In this document: positions 38,856-44,350 of the stretch, piece by piece
Layout of the letters: every line of letters begins with the position of its first letter
How positions within the stretch are numbered: position 1 is the first letter of the stretch
Origin: Actinomycetota bacterium
GTDB lineage: Bacteria; Actinomycetota; CADDZG01; JAHWKV01
Direction: 5' to 3'
Assembly: GCA_035759705.1 (NCBI GenBank)
Contig: DASTUJ010000019.1
Span: forward strand, 1-45,970
DNA: 45,970 bases
Made by a program: the position numbers and the translations under genes
The notes under the pieces: model-generated
Told to the model about the DNA's origin: nothing
The model's database searches: none
What the model saw: the letters and a program-made list of their open reading frames with translations, nothing else

Positions 38856-38928
38856 GGGGCTATAGCTCATTTGGTAGAGCGCCGCCATGGCATGGCGGAG
38901 GCGAGGGGTTCGAATCCCCTTAGCTCCA
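38856..38928 (+). tRNA. tRNA-Ala (anticodon GGC)
   Basis: A full cloverleaf can be folded: acceptor GGGGCTA/TAGCTCC with the G3-U70 pair that identifies alanine tRNAs, D-arm AGCTCATTTGGTAGAGC, anticodon stem CCGCC/GGCGG around ATGGCAT (anticodon GGC), and T-arm AGGGGTTCGAATCCCCT. The discriminator is A73, and CCA is not encoded. Confidence 0.97.
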
Positions 38929-39096
38929 CAATTACAGGTATGTAATTCTCTTCGATGTAGTCCTCGGCCGCGAGACACTCACCCCTTAGCTGGGGCATAG
39001 GGGGGTCCCGAAGTTAGGCCCCATCACAAGCCGGCAATTCGTGCACCGTTCTTTCCTGACCACAAAGCAGTCCCGACCTAACCGCAATTCTTAAAT
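38929..39096. other. Gene-free stretch downstream of tRNA-Ala
   Basis: No gene is seen. A 10-bp copy of the tRNA 3' end (CCCCTTAGCT, 38982-38991; original 38916-38925) lies 66 bases downstream and forms a small hairpin CCCC-TTAGCT-GGGG. It could be a decayed attachment site or chance; no integrase is present in the window. Confidence 0.3.
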
Positions 39097-39113
39097 TTGC
39101 GTCACCGACGCAA
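39097..39113 (-). terminator. Terminator of the SPFH/NAD-kinase-like operon
   Basis: TTGCGTC-ACC-GACGCAA is a perfect 7-bp stem 41 bases beyond the stop of the NAD-kinase-like gene; on the minus strand it is followed by the A/T-rich ATTTAAGAATT. Confidence 0.55.
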
Positions 39114-39154
39114 GAAAATTCGCACGACACAACAAGCTCCCTGGTCTTCGCCTC

Positions 39155-40042
39155 CTAAATCAAACGAAGCGCTCGGTCTGAGACGCGAACCTCAACCCGC
39201 TGGCCCCAACGCAGTGTGAGGGCGTCGGCCTCGATGCCGTCCCCGAAGACGACCAGGCCGTCGGTCTCCGCCACCAGCGCCAGCTTCTCCCCGGCTTCCA
39301 GCCGTCCGCTCGTCAGCGAAGTGCCGGTCGCCCGGGACGGCCACGCCTCCCGCACGAACCAGCACAGCGCAGCGTCCGCAGGTCCCGGCATCCCCGGCGC
39401 AGACGCCCGCTCCCGGGCCACCGAGGCCAGCCAGCCGGTGGCGCCGGTTCCCGTCCCGACCAGCACGCCCGAGCTCGACTGGTGCTCGGTGCCCATTTCG
39501 CACACCAGGGCGTAGCGGGCGGACTGGTGGGACGGGTGGCCCAGGAACACCTCGTTCAGAGCGGTGAGGGTCTGGCCGTCGTCGGAGGATGCGGTGACCA
39601 TCGTCAGGTGGTCGCTGGCAGGGTTGGCCCGGATCGCCCGGTGCAGCAGGCCGGCAGCTTCGCCCGGGGCGTGGCGGACCAGGACCCCGGCGTTCCTGCC
39701 CGGCTCCGGGTCGATCCCGATCACGACCTGACCATCGAGGTACTTCGCCACGTTCGCCACCAGCCCGTCCTGACCGACCACGACGACGACATCCCCAGGG
39801 TCGAAGGCAAACCGGCTGAGGTCGCCCCGCTCGACCCGTCCCCGGCGCCAGTCCGGGGGAATCGCCGCCGCAACCTCACCCAGGCTTTCCGTCGTGAGCT
39901 CGTGGCGCCGCTTGACCTCCTCCATGCTGCGCCCTCTGGTCGAGAGGAAAAACGCAGCCTGCCCCGGGGTGCCGTGCCGGGCGACCAGCTCGTCGAACTC
40001 GGTCTGGCGGTGGACCACCACAACCCGGGGCTTCAGGCTCAC
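39155..40042 (-). CDS. NAD-kinase-like protein with altered GGDG motif
   Basis: 295-aa protein with the ATP-NAD kinase layout: an N-terminal Rossmann-like half, GQDG at 90-93 where true NAD kinases have GGDG, NEVFLGH with the conserved NE pair (163-164), and SSGVLVGTGTGATGW in place of the nucleotide-binding STPTGSTAY strand. A C-terminal all-beta part ends in WGQRVEVRVSDRALRLI. The fold assignment is good, but the altered glycine motif makes normal NAD kinase activity uncertain. The GTG start overlaps the SPFH stop (GTGA), and the pair is divergent from an NrtR-like regulator. Confidence 0.78.
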   Translation of the reverse strand: MSLKPRVVVVHRQTEFDELVARHGTPGQAAFFLSTRGRSMEEVKRRHELTTESLGEVAAAIPPDWRRGRVERGDLSRFAFDPGDVVVVVGQDGLVANVAKYLDGQVVIGIDPEPGRNAGVLVRHAPGEAAGLLHRAIRANPASDHLTMVTASSDDGQTLTALNEVFLGHPSHQSARYALVCEMGTEHQSSSGVLVGTGTGATGWLASVARERASAPGMPGPADAALCWFVREAWPSRATGTSLTSGRLEAGEKLALVAETDGLVVFGDGIEADALTLRWGQRVEVRVSDRALRLI

Positions 40043-41070
40043 GCCGCCCCTCCGAACCGCCGGATCACGTCGGTGAGCAGATCGGGCGTGATCGTCAGGT
40101 TGTCGATGGCCGGCAGGTTAGCCGCCAGCTCGTTGAGCGCAAGTGCGGTCAACAGCCGGGCGTCGAGGTCCCGGTAGACGTCGATCCGTGCCGCCTCGCC
40201 GGCTGCAGCTGCCTCACCGAGCAGGCGGGTGGACGCCGCCTCGGCAGCGCCGAGCACCTCGGCACGTTCCGCCTCCGCCGCCGCGCTCACCCGAATGCGC
40301 TCCGCTTCGGCGACGTTGGCGATGCGGTCGGCCTCCGCCTTCTCGGTCGCCCGGCTGCGGGCGTTCGCGCCGTGTTGGGCAACCAGCTCCTCCTCCCGGC
40401 GGGCCAGCTCGATCTGGTTCTGCATCTCGTTCTCCGCAATCGCCCGCTCCCGCTCGACGGCGAGGGCCCGGCGCTCGAAGGTTGCGCGGTCGGATTCGGC
40501 CTGGACCTGCTCCCGGGTCGGCGTCTGAAGCGCCCGCTCCAGGTCGTTCTCGGCCCTGACCGCCACGACCCGGACGTCTCCGATCACCACTCCCCGCTCG
40601 GCAAGGCGGGCGTCGCCCACCAGCGCATCGGCTACCCGCTCCCCCACCAGCTCAATGCCCGCATTGAGCACCTCCTCCACCCCCAGCGTTCCGATGAGAG
40701 CGAGGGCCGGCTGCTGGCACAGCTCGGTCAGGATTCCCCCGACCCTCTCCAGCGGCGCGGAGTTCCACCGGCCGGTTTTCGGGTCGATGCCGAAGTCGAT
40801 CCGGGTGGAGGCAAGGACCGGGTCGGTGAAGCGGTAGGTGATTGTTGCCTGGACCGTCACGTCCTGGAAGTCACGGGTCCGGGCGTGGAACAGAAGGGGC
40901 TGCTCCTGATCGGCGATGGGCACCTCGCTGAGGGCGCTGGTCAACGGCAGGAACCAGAACGCCAGCCCCGGGCCCTTGTGGCGCGGCCGTCCCTTCTGCA
41001 GGTGCACGACATACGCGGTTGGCTCGGCCCGCAGGTGGCGAACGAACGGTAGATGCTGAATCTCGGCCAT
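40039..41070 (-). CDS. SPFH/Band 7 domain protein
   Basis: 343-aa protein. The N-terminal half is an SPFH domain (AYVVHLQKGRPRHKGPGLAFWFLPLTSALSEVPI, then VTVQATITYRFTDPVLA). The C-terminal half is a long Ala/Glu/Arg-rich coiled coil (EREQ-like heptads from about 185 to 295), as in flotillins and stomatins. There is no N-terminal membrane helix, so it is soluble or peripheral. The ATG at 41070 has AAAAGGAG 6 bases upstream; ATG 41076 abuts that site and is less likely. SPFH proteins form ring or cage oligomers on membranes. It is the first gene of the two-gene operon facing NrtR. Confidence 0.9.
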   Translation of the reverse strand: MAEIQHLPFVRHLRAEPTAYVVHLQKGRPRHKGPGLAFWFLPLTSALSEVPIADQEQPLLFHARTRDFQDVTVQATITYRFTDPVLASTRIDFGIDPKTGRWNSAPLERVGGILTELCQQPALALIGTLGVEEVLNAGIELVGERVADALVGDARLAERGVVIGDVRVVAVRAENDLERALQTPTREQVQAESDRATFERRALAVERERAIAENEMQNQIELARREEELVAQHGANARSRATEKAEADRIANVAEAERIRVSAAAEAERAEVLGAAEAASTRLLGEAAAAGEAARIDVYRDLDARLLTALALNELAANLPAIDNLTITPDLLTDVIRRFGGAA

Positions 41071-41096
41071 CTTCATCTCCTTTTCCGGTTGTTTTC

Positions 41097-41113
41097 GTCA
41101 TTAAGACGATAAG
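41097..41113. promoter_or_regulatory. Operator copy 1 of the SPFH/NrtR divergent promoter
   Basis: GTCATTAAGACGATAAG, a 17-bp motif repeated 33 bp downstream. Its core is an inverted repeat TCGTC-ATTAA-GACGA (41095-41109). It lies 27 bases upstream of the SPFH start and is likely a regulator site. Confidence 0.65.
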
Positions 41114-41129
41114 ACCATACTGGATAAAT

Positions 41130-41146
41130 GTCAATCTGACGATTAG
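41130..41146. promoter_or_regulatory. Operator copy 2 of the SPFH/NrtR divergent promoter
   Basis: GTCAATCTGACGATTAG shares 13 of 17 bases with copy 1 and contains the inverted repeat GTCA-ATC-TGAC. It lies 9 bases before the nrtR-like start and touches its candidate -10 TAGTCT (41144-41149), which is 6 bases before the ATG. Confidence 0.65.
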
Positions 41147-41155
41147 TCTGGACAG

Positions 41156-41845
41156 ATGACCGAATCACTTCATCTGACGGCCGCGGTAGCGGTTGACCTG
41201 GTCGTGCTCACCGTTCGGGAAGGGCGGTTCCTGACCGTCGTCGTCGAGCGCGGCATCCCGCCGTTCAAAGGCCGCATGGCCCTCCCGGGTGGTTTCGTCT
41301 TGAACGACGAAACACTTGCCGAGGCTGCGACCCGGGAGCTGGCCGAGGAGACCGGGGTTGCGGCAGAGACCGGCCACCTGGAGCAGCTGGCCACCTACGG
41401 CGACCCGGATCGGGACCCCCGCGGGCGGGTGGTGGCCGTTGCCTACCTGGCCCTGGTCCCCGACCTGCCCGACCCGGTGGCCGGGTCGGACGCTGCGGGC
41501 GCCGGACTCGAGTCGGTCGACGACCTGCTTTCCGAGCCGGACCGACTGGCCTTCGACCACCACCGCATCCTGTCCGACGGCGTCGAGAGGGCCCGGGCGA
41601 AGCTCGAGTACTCGACCCTGGCCACCGCGTTCTGCCCGGAGTCGTTTACGGTGGCGGAGCTGAGGGGGGTGTACGAAGCGGTCTGGGGTTTCCCGCTGGA
41701 CCCCCGGAACTTCCATCGCAAGGTCACCTCGACCCCGGGATTCGTGGAAGAGACGGGAAGCCGCACCAGCAGGCAGGGAGGGCGGCCCGCTCAGCTCTAC
41801 CGCCGCGGTGAGGCGAAGTTCCTCTACCCGCCGTTTCTTCGCTAG
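41156..41845 (+). CDS. NrtR-like Nudix-family regulator
   Basis: 229-aa protein. The N-terminal Nudix domain has a complete Nudix box (GFVLNDETLAEAATRELAEETGV, G46 to V68, all REUxEExGU residues present). The C-terminal winged helix (LEYSTLATAFCPESFTVAELRGVYEAVWG, then DPRNFHRKVTSTPGFVEETG) is typical of NrtR, an ADP-ribose-sensing repressor of NAD genes. Because the Nudix box is intact, hydrolase activity may remain. There is no Shine-Dalgarno sequence; a leaderless start is likely. It probably controls the divergent SPFH/NAD-kinase-like operon and itself. Confidence 0.9.
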   Translation: MTESLHLTAAVAVDLVVLTVREGRFLTVVVERGIPPFKGRMALPGGFVLNDETLAEAATRELAEETGVAAETGHLEQLATYGDPDRDPRGRVVAVAYLALVPDLPDPVAGSDAAGAGLESVDDLLSEPDRLAFDHHRILSDGVERARAKLEYSTLATAFCPESFTVAELRGVYEAVWGFPLDPRNFHRKVTSTPGFVEETGSRTSRQGGRPAQLYRRGEAKFLYPPFLR

Positions 41846-41961: not shown

Positions 41962-43317
41962 TTGATCGAGTGGCTCCTGCTTGGGGTGGTCGTCCTGATG
42001 GTCGCCGCCAACGCGTTGTTCGTGGCGGCCGAGTTCAGCCTCGTGACTATCGACCGGCCCCTGGTGGAGAAGGCTGCCGGTGAAGGCGACGTACGGGCCG
42101 GGGGAATCCTCGCTGCGCTGAAGTCCCTTTCGACCCAGCTTTCCGGGGCCCAGCTCGGCATCACGGTTACCAGTCTGATTGTCGGTTTCATCGCCGAGCC
42201 CTCACTGGCGGCAATCCTGCTCGGGCCCCTTCGACGTGTCGGCCTGGCGGACTCCGCTACCGCGGTCGCGTTCGGAAGCGCATTCATCCTGACAACCGCC
42301 TTCCAGATGATCCTCGGAGAGCTGGTCCCCAAGAACCTTGCCCTGGCCCGCCCCTACCAGGTCGCCCGGGCAGTCGCCGGTCCCCAGCGGGCGTTCACCG
42401 CCGCCACCGGGCCGTTGATCGATTTCCTCAACGGCTCCGCCAACCGGATCCTGCGCGCCTTCGGAGTGGAGCCGGTGGAGGAGCTGGCCTCAGCCCGCTC
42501 CCCCCAGGAACTGCTCTCCCTTGTTCAGCGGTCACGCTCCGAGGGAACCCTGGAGAGCAACACAGCCAAGCTCCTGATCCGGTCCTTCAAGTTCGGCGGC
42601 CTCTCCGCCGCCGATGTCATGGTCCCGCGGCGGCGGGTGCGGACACTTAGCGTCGACTCACCCATCTCGGATCTCGTGGCGCTCGCCCGGTCCACCGGCC
42701 ACTCCCGGTTCCCGGTGCTGGGCGAGGGGGTCGACGACCCGGTAGGCGTCGTGCACATCAAGCAGGCGATTGCAGCCCCCTTCGACGAACGCTCCGTCCG
42801 CCGGATCGGCGAAGTGATGATCCCGCCGGTCCTGGTGCTGGAGTCGACCAACCTGGACCAGCTGCTCAGCGTTCTCCGGGGAAGGGGCCTGCAGATGGCG
42901 ATCGTGGTCGACGAGTACGGAGGGACGGCGGGGATCGTCACCCTCGAAGACCTGATCGAAGAGATCGTGGGCGAGATTGTGGATGAGCACGACCGGACCA
43001 ACCTGCACGCCCACCGCCGGCCCGACGGGGTCTGGTCCCTGTCCGGGTTGCTCCGCCCGGATGAGGCACGGGAGCTGACGGGCCTTGCCTTCCCCGAAAG
43101 CGACGACTACGACACGCTCGGCGGCCTGATGGCGGGCGAGCTGGGGAGGATTCCGAAGGTGGGCAACGTGGCGGCGGTCACCCTCGAAGAGGTCCCCGTG
43201 GTTCTGACGGTGCAGAGAATGGACGGATTCCGGGTGGACCGGCTGCTGGCGGACGTCCAGGCCGACCCGGCATTCGGTGGGAACGACCAGTCGTCGGAGG
43301 GTGCTGCCGATGAGTAA
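41962..43317 (+). CDS. CNNM/CorC-type transporter (DUF21-CBS-CBS-CorC_HlyC)
   Basis: 451-aa membrane protein. The DUF21 domain (ANALFVAAEFSLVTIDR, SGAQLGITVTSLIVGFIAEPSL, MILGELVPKNLALA) is followed by a CBS pair (SAADVMVPRRRVRTL; EYGGTAGIVTLEDLIEEIVGEI) and a CorC_HlyC domain (GVWSLSGLLRPDEARELTGL). Relatives export Mg2+ or modulate divalent cation efflux; many are misnamed hemolysins. The start appears to be TTG, and no better start is in frame. It overlaps the next gene, a shorter paralogue, by 8 bases. Confidence 0.92.
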   Translation: MIEWLLLGVVVLMVAANALFVAAEFSLVTIDRPLVEKAAGEGDVRAGGILAALKSLSTQLSGAQLGITVTSLIVGFIAEPSLAAILLGPLRRVGLADSATAVAFGSAFILTTAFQMILGELVPKNLALARPYQVARAVAGPQRAFTAATGPLIDFLNGSANRILRAFGVEPVEELASARSPQELLSLVQRSRSEGTLESNTAKLLIRSFKFGGLSAADVMVPRRRVRTLSVDSPISDLVALARSTGHSRFPVLGEGVDDPVGVVHIKQAIAAPFDERSVRRIGEVMIPPVLVLESTNLDQLLSVLRGRGLQMAIVVDEYGGTAGIVTLEDLIEEIVGEIVDEHDRTNLHAHRRPDGVWSLSGLLRPDEARELTGLAFPESDDYDTLGGLMAGELGRIPKVGNVAAVTLEEVPVVLTVQRMDGFRVDRLLADVQADPAFGGNDQSSEGAADE

Positions 43318-44350
43318 CGCCTCTGCCCTGCTCATCGGCGCAGCCCTCCTCATAGGCAATGCGTTCTTCGTGGGGGCCGAGTTCGCATTGATTTCGCTGC
43401 GGCGTTCGCAGATTGAGCCCCGGGCCGAGACGGGCTCCAGGCCGGCGAGGATCACTCTCAAAGCCATGGAGAACGTGTCGCTCATGATGGCGGGAGCCCA
43501 GCTTGGGATCACCATGTGCTCCCTGGGCCTGGGGGCCATAGGAGAGCCCGCGGTGGCTCACCTGCTCGAGGTTCCCTTTGCCGCGATGAACCTTCCCGAG
43601 CCGCTGCTCCACCCGATCGCTTTCACCGTCGCCCTGGGGATTGTGGTCTTCCTTCACATGGTCCTGGGCGAGATGGTCCCCAAGAACCTGGCGCTGGCGG
43701 GCCCCACGAGGTCGGCCCTGCTTTTGAGCCCGATTCTCTACGCCATTGTCCTGGTCCTGAAGCCCTTGATAGTCACCCTCAACGCCATCGGAAACGCGAT
43801 CCTGCGCCTGTTCAAGGTCGAGCCTAAGGACGAGGTGGCCTCGGCCTTCACCCGGGAAGAGGTGGCCGCGCTGGTGGCCGAGTCCAAAAAGGAGGGGCTG
43901 CTGAAAGAGGGCGAGCACGAGCTGCTGGAGGGGGCCCTGTCGTTTCCGGAGCGCAGCGTTCGCACGGTGCTGATCCCCACCTCCCGGCTGGAGGTGTTGG
44001 GCACCGGCATCACCGCCGCCGACGTGGAGGCCAAGTCGGCGGAGACCGGGTTCTCCCGGTTCCCGGTGCGCGACGCCGAGGGCCAGCTGATGGGCTACCT
44101 GCACTTGAAGGACGTCCTGGAGGAGGACCCCGCCAAGCGGGTGCGTAAGATCGCCGCCAAGCGCATCAGGCCCATGCCCACCCTGGCCGCCGACGAGCCC
44201 CTCGACTCGGCCCTTCGCTTGATGCAGGAGCGCGGCACCCACCTGGCTCGGGTGCACGAGCCGGACGGCAGGTTCATCGGCGTGGTGACCCTGGAGGACG
44301 TGCTGGAGGAGCTGGTAGGGGTAATCCGGGACGCCACCCAGTCGGCCTAG
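43310..44350 (+). CDS. CNNM-like protein lacking the CorC_HlyC domain
   Basis: 346-aa paralogue of the preceding gene. The DUF21 domain (GNAFFVGAEFALISLRRSQIEPRAETG, AGAQLGITMCSLGLGAIGEPAVAHLL, VLGEMVPKNLALAG) and two CBS motifs (RTVLIPTSRLEVL; FIGVVTLEDVLEELVG) are present, but the protein ends right after CBS2. The ATG lies within ATGAGTAA of the previous stop, with GGAGG 9 bases upstream. Tandem long and short CNNM genes probably form a heteromeric cation-efflux unit; this is inferred from the pairing. Confidence 0.9.
   Translation: MSNASALLIGAALLIGNAFFVGAEFALISLRRSQIEPRAETGSRPARITLKAMENVSLMMAGAQLGITMCSLGLGAIGEPAVAHLLEVPFAAMNLPEPLLHPIAFTVALGIVVFLHMVLGEMVPKNLALAGPTRSALLLSPILYAIVLVLKPLIVTLNAIGNAILRLFKVEPKDEVASAFTREEVAALVAESKKEGLLKEGEHELLEGALSFPERSVRTVLIPTSRLEVLGTGITAADVEAKSAETGFSRFPVRDAEGQLMGYLHLKDVLEEDPAKRVRKIAAKRIRPMPTLAADEPLDSALRLMQERGTHLARVHEPDGRFIGVVTLEDVLEELVGVIRDATQSA

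Follow-up and report, generated by a model that had tools for sequence, protein, structure and literature searches.

Contig DASTUJ010000019.1 of an Actinomycetota bacterium (GenBank assembly GCA_035759705.1), of which the whole stretch of 45,970 nucleotides analysed here is called the window, carries a compact locus of three genes: a regulator gene of the NrtR type and, facing it, a gene pair for an SPFH protein and a relative of nicotinamide adenine dinucleotide (NAD) kinases. The regulator gene (41156..41845, forward strand) encodes 229 amino acids, with a Nudix domain and a winged helix according to Pfam and alignment. On the reverse strand lie the SPFH/Band 7 gene (40039..41076; at most 345 amino acids) and the NADK2-like kinase gene (39155..40042; 295 amino acids), the latter assigned from the open reading frame call, sequence matches in the PDB, AlphaFold and Foldseek. 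The GTG start of the kinase gene overlaps the stop of the SPFH gene in a GTGA (40039..40042, reverse strand), an arrangement of translational coupling. Translation of the SPFH gene probably starts at the ATG at 41070 rather than at 41076, because alignment places the start conserved in the family at the third residue of the longest open reading frame. A first-pass annotation, made from the letters of the window alone, had described these three genes and their overlap, and an open reading frame check agrees with it. At the level of sequence, our comparisons confirmed that the trio is a real, conserved and regulated module.

Linkage of the three genes was surveyed with one genome per species, which gave at least 578 relatives of the kinase, the best 80 of which were taken for neighbourhood counts. 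An SPFH relative lies directly upstream of the kinase gene on the same strand in all 80 of these loci, and a divergent NrtR relative adjoins the pair in 42; the other 38 include 32 from Streptomyces. The exact 4-base overlap between the SPFH and kinase genes is kept in 74 of the 106 loci that were read. Modules with the same divergent order also occur in plasmid records of Rhizobium, Moraxella, Methylomonas, Providencia, Cupriavidus and Proteus, with a kinase identity of 35–40%. In a Treponema plasmid, the NrtR-like gene lies 4 kb away from the pair, while an actinobacterial contig (L015) has nrtR, SPFH and kinase genes all on one strand. These arrangements show that gene order varies, yet the three genes stay together. 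The first-pass annotation had called for such a neighbourhood survey, in the belief that other actinobacteria have trios of this kind. This proved correct and even understated, since the trio ranges over Actinomycetota and Alpha-, Beta- and Gammaproteobacteria, with a looser form in a spirochaete. Its distribution is patchy: strong matches were found in 11 of the 396 sampled genomes of the phylum, and in none of three genomes of the same genus. Clustering of open reading frames around more than 80 loci revealed no conserved fourth gene, as none beyond the trio consistently crosses genera.

The intergenic region contains two tandem palindromes of the form TTATCGTC-N4-TGACGATAA, which lie over the -35 and -10 elements of the SPFH promoter. 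The proximal operator TTATCGTCTTAATGACGAAAA (41092..41112, reverse strand; 1 mismatch), of a type conserved in all 45 loci of adjacent trios, overlaps the predicted -10 element TATCGT (41106..41111, reverse strand). The distal operator TAATCGTCAGATTGACATTTA (41125..41145, reverse strand; 4 mismatches) lies 33 bp from the proximal one and overlaps the predicted -35 element TTGACA (41129..41134, reverse strand). Both elements are called by consensus match only, and together they give a predicted promoter TTGACA-17-TATCGT at 41106–41134. As the -35 and -10 elements lie inside the operator copies, a bound repressor would cover both of them.

This geometry recurs widely. When up to 4 mismatches were allowed, at least one operator copy was found in 45/45 actinobacterial loci with an adjacent nrtR and two copies in 40/45, against zero matches in the shuffled sequences that served as control. 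With or without an adjacent nrtR, 77 of 93 loci have two copies. The copies are spaced by 33–34 bp in 67 of these 77 loci and by 44–45 bp, one helical turn more, in another 7, as expected for two dimers on one face of the DNA. In 65 loci, TTGAC(G/A) in the outer copy is separated by 17–18 bp from TATCGT in the inner copy. The operator is also present in 43 of the 51 loci without an adjacent nrtR. In the genome of the window (96% complete), the only NrtR_WHD protein found and the only good operator belong to the trio, and a genome-wide site search found no operator at its NAD-synthesis genes. Likewise, among the sites listed for 37 trio genomes, the strongest is the trio's own. Proteus, Moraxella and Providencia have instead three GTC-N5-GAC repeats, spaced 33–35 and 25 bp apart. 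In Cupriavidus (L030), the region between nrtR and the SPFH gene holds a 17-bp perfect inverted repeat of GTTGTAC-GTACAAC-like palindromes, which is not the actinobacterial operator.

Streptomyces offers a case of the same regulation in trans. Its nrtR orthologue (67–70% identity) lies beside a DUF4192 gene and, in those contiguous cases that were seen, ~90–150 kb away from the pair. One operator copy is found in the promoter of nrtR itself and tandem copies in the promoter of the SPFH gene. The conserved tandem operators on the SPFH promoter, kept even where nrtR has moved away, indicate that the NrtR-type regulator targets the pair, and we regard this regulatory link as near certain. Hence, the suggestion of the first-pass annotation that the regulator acts on the pair, and on a target outside the known NAD pathway genes, is borne out by the operators and, in the genome of the window, by a single good site at the trio.

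A few other sites were considered. We set aside a third recurrent Streptomyces site, TTCTCGACCACTTGACGAGTA (11/15 genomes): in the genomes read, it falls within a helix-turn-helix coding sequence. Near-perfect palindromes in genomes G044 and G438 lie beside unrelated genes and were not counted as part of the regulon. In Streptomyces longwoodensis, a trio-type operator ATCTCGTCAGTGTGACGATAT occurs near the probable start of a pncB-like gene (L198:5051), which is followed by a pncA-like gene. Possibly, the pncB-like gene is an extra member of the regulon in some Streptomyces.

The regulator itself is of the Nudix and winged-helix NrtR type, as had been recognized from the letters alone. It matches PF00293 (NUDIX) with 64.2 bits and PF21906 (NrtR_WHD) with 58.5 bits, both above the Pfam cut-off, and aligns with NrtR/AraR structures in the PDB over its whole length. 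Its score against NF050029, the NCBIfam model of the ADP-ribose-responsive repressor, is 125.4 bits, below the curated cut-off of 400. Alignment shows an intact Nudix box (G46-x5-E52-x7-REL-x-EE-x-G67). The catalytic box is intact in most of the actinobacterial relatives and degenerate in the gammaproteobacterial ones, which suggests that the trio regulators have ligand binding in common rather than hydrolysis. The gammaproteobacterial trio regulators are very close to NrtR of Shewanella oneidensis (PDB 3gz5; 362 bits), the ligand of which is ADP-ribose (PMC4666351). A tree of 84 NrtR proteins places the window regulator inside the trio regulators (99/87 support) and groups the solo genes of Streptomyces with the trio regulators of Frankia (91/86). 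The other groups are a pnc-linked clade and most of the ADP-ribosylglycohydrolase-linked paralogues of Streptomyces; the deep branches are poorly supported. Sister NrtR genes were seen in pncB-pncA-nrtR operons of another family (L181, L182, L187) and, in Streptomyces, beside an ADP-ribosylglycohydrolase (ADP_ribosyl_GH) gene (L191:4887-6649) with the operator TTATAGTC-N4-TGACTATAA. These neighbours place the group in NAD and ADP-ribose sensing.

Like the regulons described for NrtR of Shewanella, Mycobacterium and Streptococcus and for NdnR of Corynebacterium, the trio has palindromic operators next to both the target operon and the gene of the regulator, which combines a Nudix domain with an NrtR winged helix. 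However, its target is the SPFH/NADK2-like pair, whereas theirs are NAD synthesis or salvage genes. The trio has two tandem operators, and the operator TTATCGTC-N4-TGACGATAA differs from the mycobacterial NrtR site GTTTTCGA-N7-TCGAAAAC (PMC6800001). The intact Nudix box of the window protein and most actinobacterial members is a further difference. The trio also shares an NrtR-type sensor, thought to respond to ADP-ribose, with systems centred on ADP-ribosylglycohydrolases (PMC9503650), but has no glycohydrolase, phosphatase or chaperone.

The kinase-like protein matches no credible Pfam family at E<1, and no NAD kinase family of Pfam. Its NCBIfam matches are all sub-threshold and all to NAD kinases, the best with 24.3 bits against a cut-off of 260. 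A profile search of the PDB placed human NADK2 first (E 6e-20). An AlphaFold2 model, built with 44 relatives, has a predicted local distance difference test score (pLDDT) of 94, and its best Foldseek match is human mitochondrial NADK2 (7r4l, E 3e-17), followed by bacterial NAD kinases. All 50 Foldseek matches listed are NAD kinases or annotated entries of the NAD kinase family. This is in agreement with the NAD kinase fold that had been read from the translation of the last gene. The protein shares the SSG..TGTG..W and REP motifs with NADK2. In contrast to NADK2, it has only ~18% identity over a chain that is ~100 residues shorter, is bacterial and encoded with an SPFH gene, has a GQDG motif in place of GGDG, and is so far a predicted kinase only.

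The SPFH protein scores 52.6 bits against Pfam Band_7, above the cut-off. In its AlphaFold model, an SPFH domain is followed by a helix of ~125 residues and then by a conserved segment at the C-terminus, and Foldseek matches the model to HflK/C, stomatin, erlin and flotillin. The predicted fold thus shares with HflK/HflC, stomatin, erlin and flotillin an SPFH domain followed by a long helix. Unlike these, it has no membrane helix, and its partner gene is a kinase in every locus rather than NfeD or FtsH. The SPFH fold and the coupled translation suggest that the protein may form a cage that holds the kinase. In Foldseek, the model (ma725dbf06300) also matched the cage of the major vault protein, including entries with PARP4 and with ADP-ribose, a suggestive resemblance that we treat as a parallel only.

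Further evidence comes from the IMG/VR contig IMGVR_UViG_3300023296_000874 (257.5 kb), which encodes the pair in an NAD-salvage cluster. There, genes for an NrtR-like protein, an isochorismatase/nicotinamidase-like protein, ClpP, DUF3228, SPFH, the kinase and a nicotinate phosphoribosyltransferase-like protein (TIGR01513, E 1e-24) lie on one strand (L113:1673-10192; also L218, L219). A class II tRNA synthetase gene comes next after the cluster (L113). Topoisomerase, DNA polymerase A and other genes of the contig match phage families (PHROG), and neither the terminase model nor the ribosomal L2 model was matched. The contig is a probable jumbo phage, qualified as such because no terminase model matched. 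The presence of the pair inside this cluster is independent evidence for a role in NAD metabolism, and a connection of the module with NAD is likely.

The most likely explanation of these results is the following mechanism. The NrtR-type repressor would bind the two operators over the SPFH promoter elements and before its own gene, and so silence both. Upon NAD breakdown, ADP-ribose or a related product would accumulate, occupy the Nudix domain and release the repressor. Coupled translation would then yield the SPFH protein and the kinase together. The SPFH protein would hold the kinase in a ring or cage, probably at the inner face of the membrane, and the kinase would respond locally to the loss of NAD by phosphorylating NAD(H) or a closely related compound. 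The linkage, operators, promoter geometry, predicted folds and conserved catalytic residues behind this scheme come from sequence comparison, and from them we infer the ligand, direction of control, complex, substrate and physiological purpose. As a whole, with ADP-ribose as inducer and NAD or a relative of it as the substrate of a scaffolded kinase, the mechanism seems to us about evenly poised between right and wrong.

Several observations weigh against it. The effectors of NrtR relatives vary, with arabinose for AraR and NAD for NdnR (PMC4666351), so that ADP-ribose as the ligand is not assured. No membrane helix was found in the SPFH protein (best 19-residue hydropathy 1.29), in line with its first description, and values of at least 1.6 occur in only 3 of 101 family members; membrane attachment is therefore uncertain. 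Some loci (L011, L023, L074, L087, L089) have neither an adjacent nrtR nor operators, which makes the SPFH-kinase pair the core of the module, with the regulator as an addition. The genome of the window has a separate, ordinary NAD kinase with GGDGT, and hence the kinase of the trio is not the housekeeping enzyme. Moreover, GQDG (G90-Q91-D92-G93; codons at 39764..39775, reverse strand) replaces the GGDG of NAD kinases: in an alignment of 52 family members, Q91 is conserved in at least 90%, and D92 and both glycines are invariant. Finally, of the residues Asp85, Asn159, Glu160, Thr200 and Tyr202, which are essential in the NAD kinase of Mycobacterium tuberculosis (PMC8553519), the last corresponds to an invariant tryptophan, W204; NADK2 also has Trp at the aligned position. 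With Gln for Gly and Trp for Tyr, the substrate or phosphate donor may differ. The other equivalents by alignment are D92 (invariant, 52/52), N163 (invariant) and E164 (Asp in proteobacteria) at the place of the NE/D motif, and T202 (at least 90%), which with W204 stands for the Thr and Tyr of conserved region II. Hence, the description of the protein as an altered kinase holds for the GGDG motif and the tyrosine, but not for the catalytic Asp, Asn and Thr, which are all conserved. Because of these residues, and because the nearest solved relative, NADK2, is a genuine NAD kinase, an active enzyme is the better guess.

The same substitutions could mean that the regulation is as proposed while the substrate is another: ADP-ribose, a nucleotide sugar or a lipid, as in the wider superfamily of NADK, diacylglycerol kinases and phosphofructokinase. 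The failure to pass curated NAD kinase models, the housekeeping NAD kinase already in the genome and the SPFH partner in every locus would fit with this, as would the fact that GGDG is common to diacylglycerol kinases and phosphofructokinase (PMC8553519). If true, the SPFH link would point to membrane lipids. Yet NADK2 comes first by both sequence and fold, most of the residues that NAD kinases need are retained, and the cluster on the phage contig is one of NAD salvage, so that we consider another substrate rather unlikely. A non-catalytic NAD(P)-binding sensor that gates SPFH assembly might likewise explain the altered GGDG motif, the strong co-conservation with SPFH and the coupled translation. 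However, invariance of the catalytic Asp, Asn163 and Trp204 in 52/52 members would be unusual for a pseudoenzyme, which makes a sensor quite improbable.

An alternative of a different kind is that the module is mainly a conflict system, which answers phages or toxins that attack by NAD depletion or ADP-ribosylation. NrtR-type regulators have been proposed for anti-ADP-ribosylation systems (PMC9503650), and the patchy, mobile distribution, with plasmids in many genera and absence from same-genus genomes, and the copy on a probable jumbo phage point in this direction. Nonetheless, PADLOC matched neither the SPFH protein nor the kinase, and its weak match to the regulator covers the Nudix box only. 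There is no nuclease or toxin partner and no conserved fourth gene, and the sequences are well conserved, unlike fast-evolving defence genes; a role mainly in conflict is thus improbable. That an ordinary NrtR gene merely came to lie next to an unrelated operon is extremely improbable, given the linkage across phyla and the operators kept in trans, and no observation spoke for it. Chance adjacency is excluded by the 80/80 linkage of SPFH and kinase genes and the shared operator with no match in shuffled sequences.

In our literature searches pairing SPFH with NrtR, with NAD kinase and with NADK2, which did not cover the founding NrtR papers (2008, 2009), no papers were found. Neither of two surveys of SPFH proteins, one on prokaryotes (PMC2636767) and one on Pseudomonas (PMC13086221), names NAD or Nudix partners. 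NrtR-type sensors beside ADP-ribosylglycohydrolases are described in a survey of conflict systems around NAD and ADP-ribose, which mentions neither SPFH, NAD kinase nor this pair (PMC9503650). New here are the tandem operators on the SPFH promoter of an NrtR-linked SPFH-kinase pair, which give NrtR-type regulators a target other than NAD synthesis. Across hundreds of bacterial species, the module joins SPFH membrane microdomains with NAD metabolism, two fields unlinked in the literature searched, and it may represent a branch of NAD biology that has not been described so far. Since the closest solved structure is human NADK2, the substrate of the kinase bears on the origin of that enzyme family. 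More tentatively, the module could be a horizontally moving and widespread two-protein machine, also phage-borne, in which an SPFH cage houses a NADK2-related kinase with a new substrate (e.g., ADP-ribose or NAD of a membrane-bound pool) and is induced by NAD breakdown. We think this possible but doubtful; if true, it would be an NAD-damage response on no NAD pathway map. The clarity of the operators makes ligand and regulation readily testable in Streptomyces, Arthrobacter and Rhizobium.

Around the trio of the window, a tRNA-Ala gene (38856–38929) adjoins the module, with the stretch 38930–39154 beyond it. Homology to genomes of the same genus stops at or within a few bases of the 3' end of this tRNA gene, and the trio is absent from the stretch past it in every relative read, which points to a hot spot for insertions. 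On the other side, two consecutive genes for CNNM/CorC-type transporters (41962–44350) follow the trio; they do not belong to the module elsewhere. In Proteus and Moraxella (L025, L026, L031, L032), the trio directly adjoins tet(J) or tetR(H)-tet(H). Some small plasmids (Psychrobacter pKLH80, pAST2) also keep shortened remnants of the pair next to tet(H), which marks the module here as a passenger of a tetracycline-resistance element.

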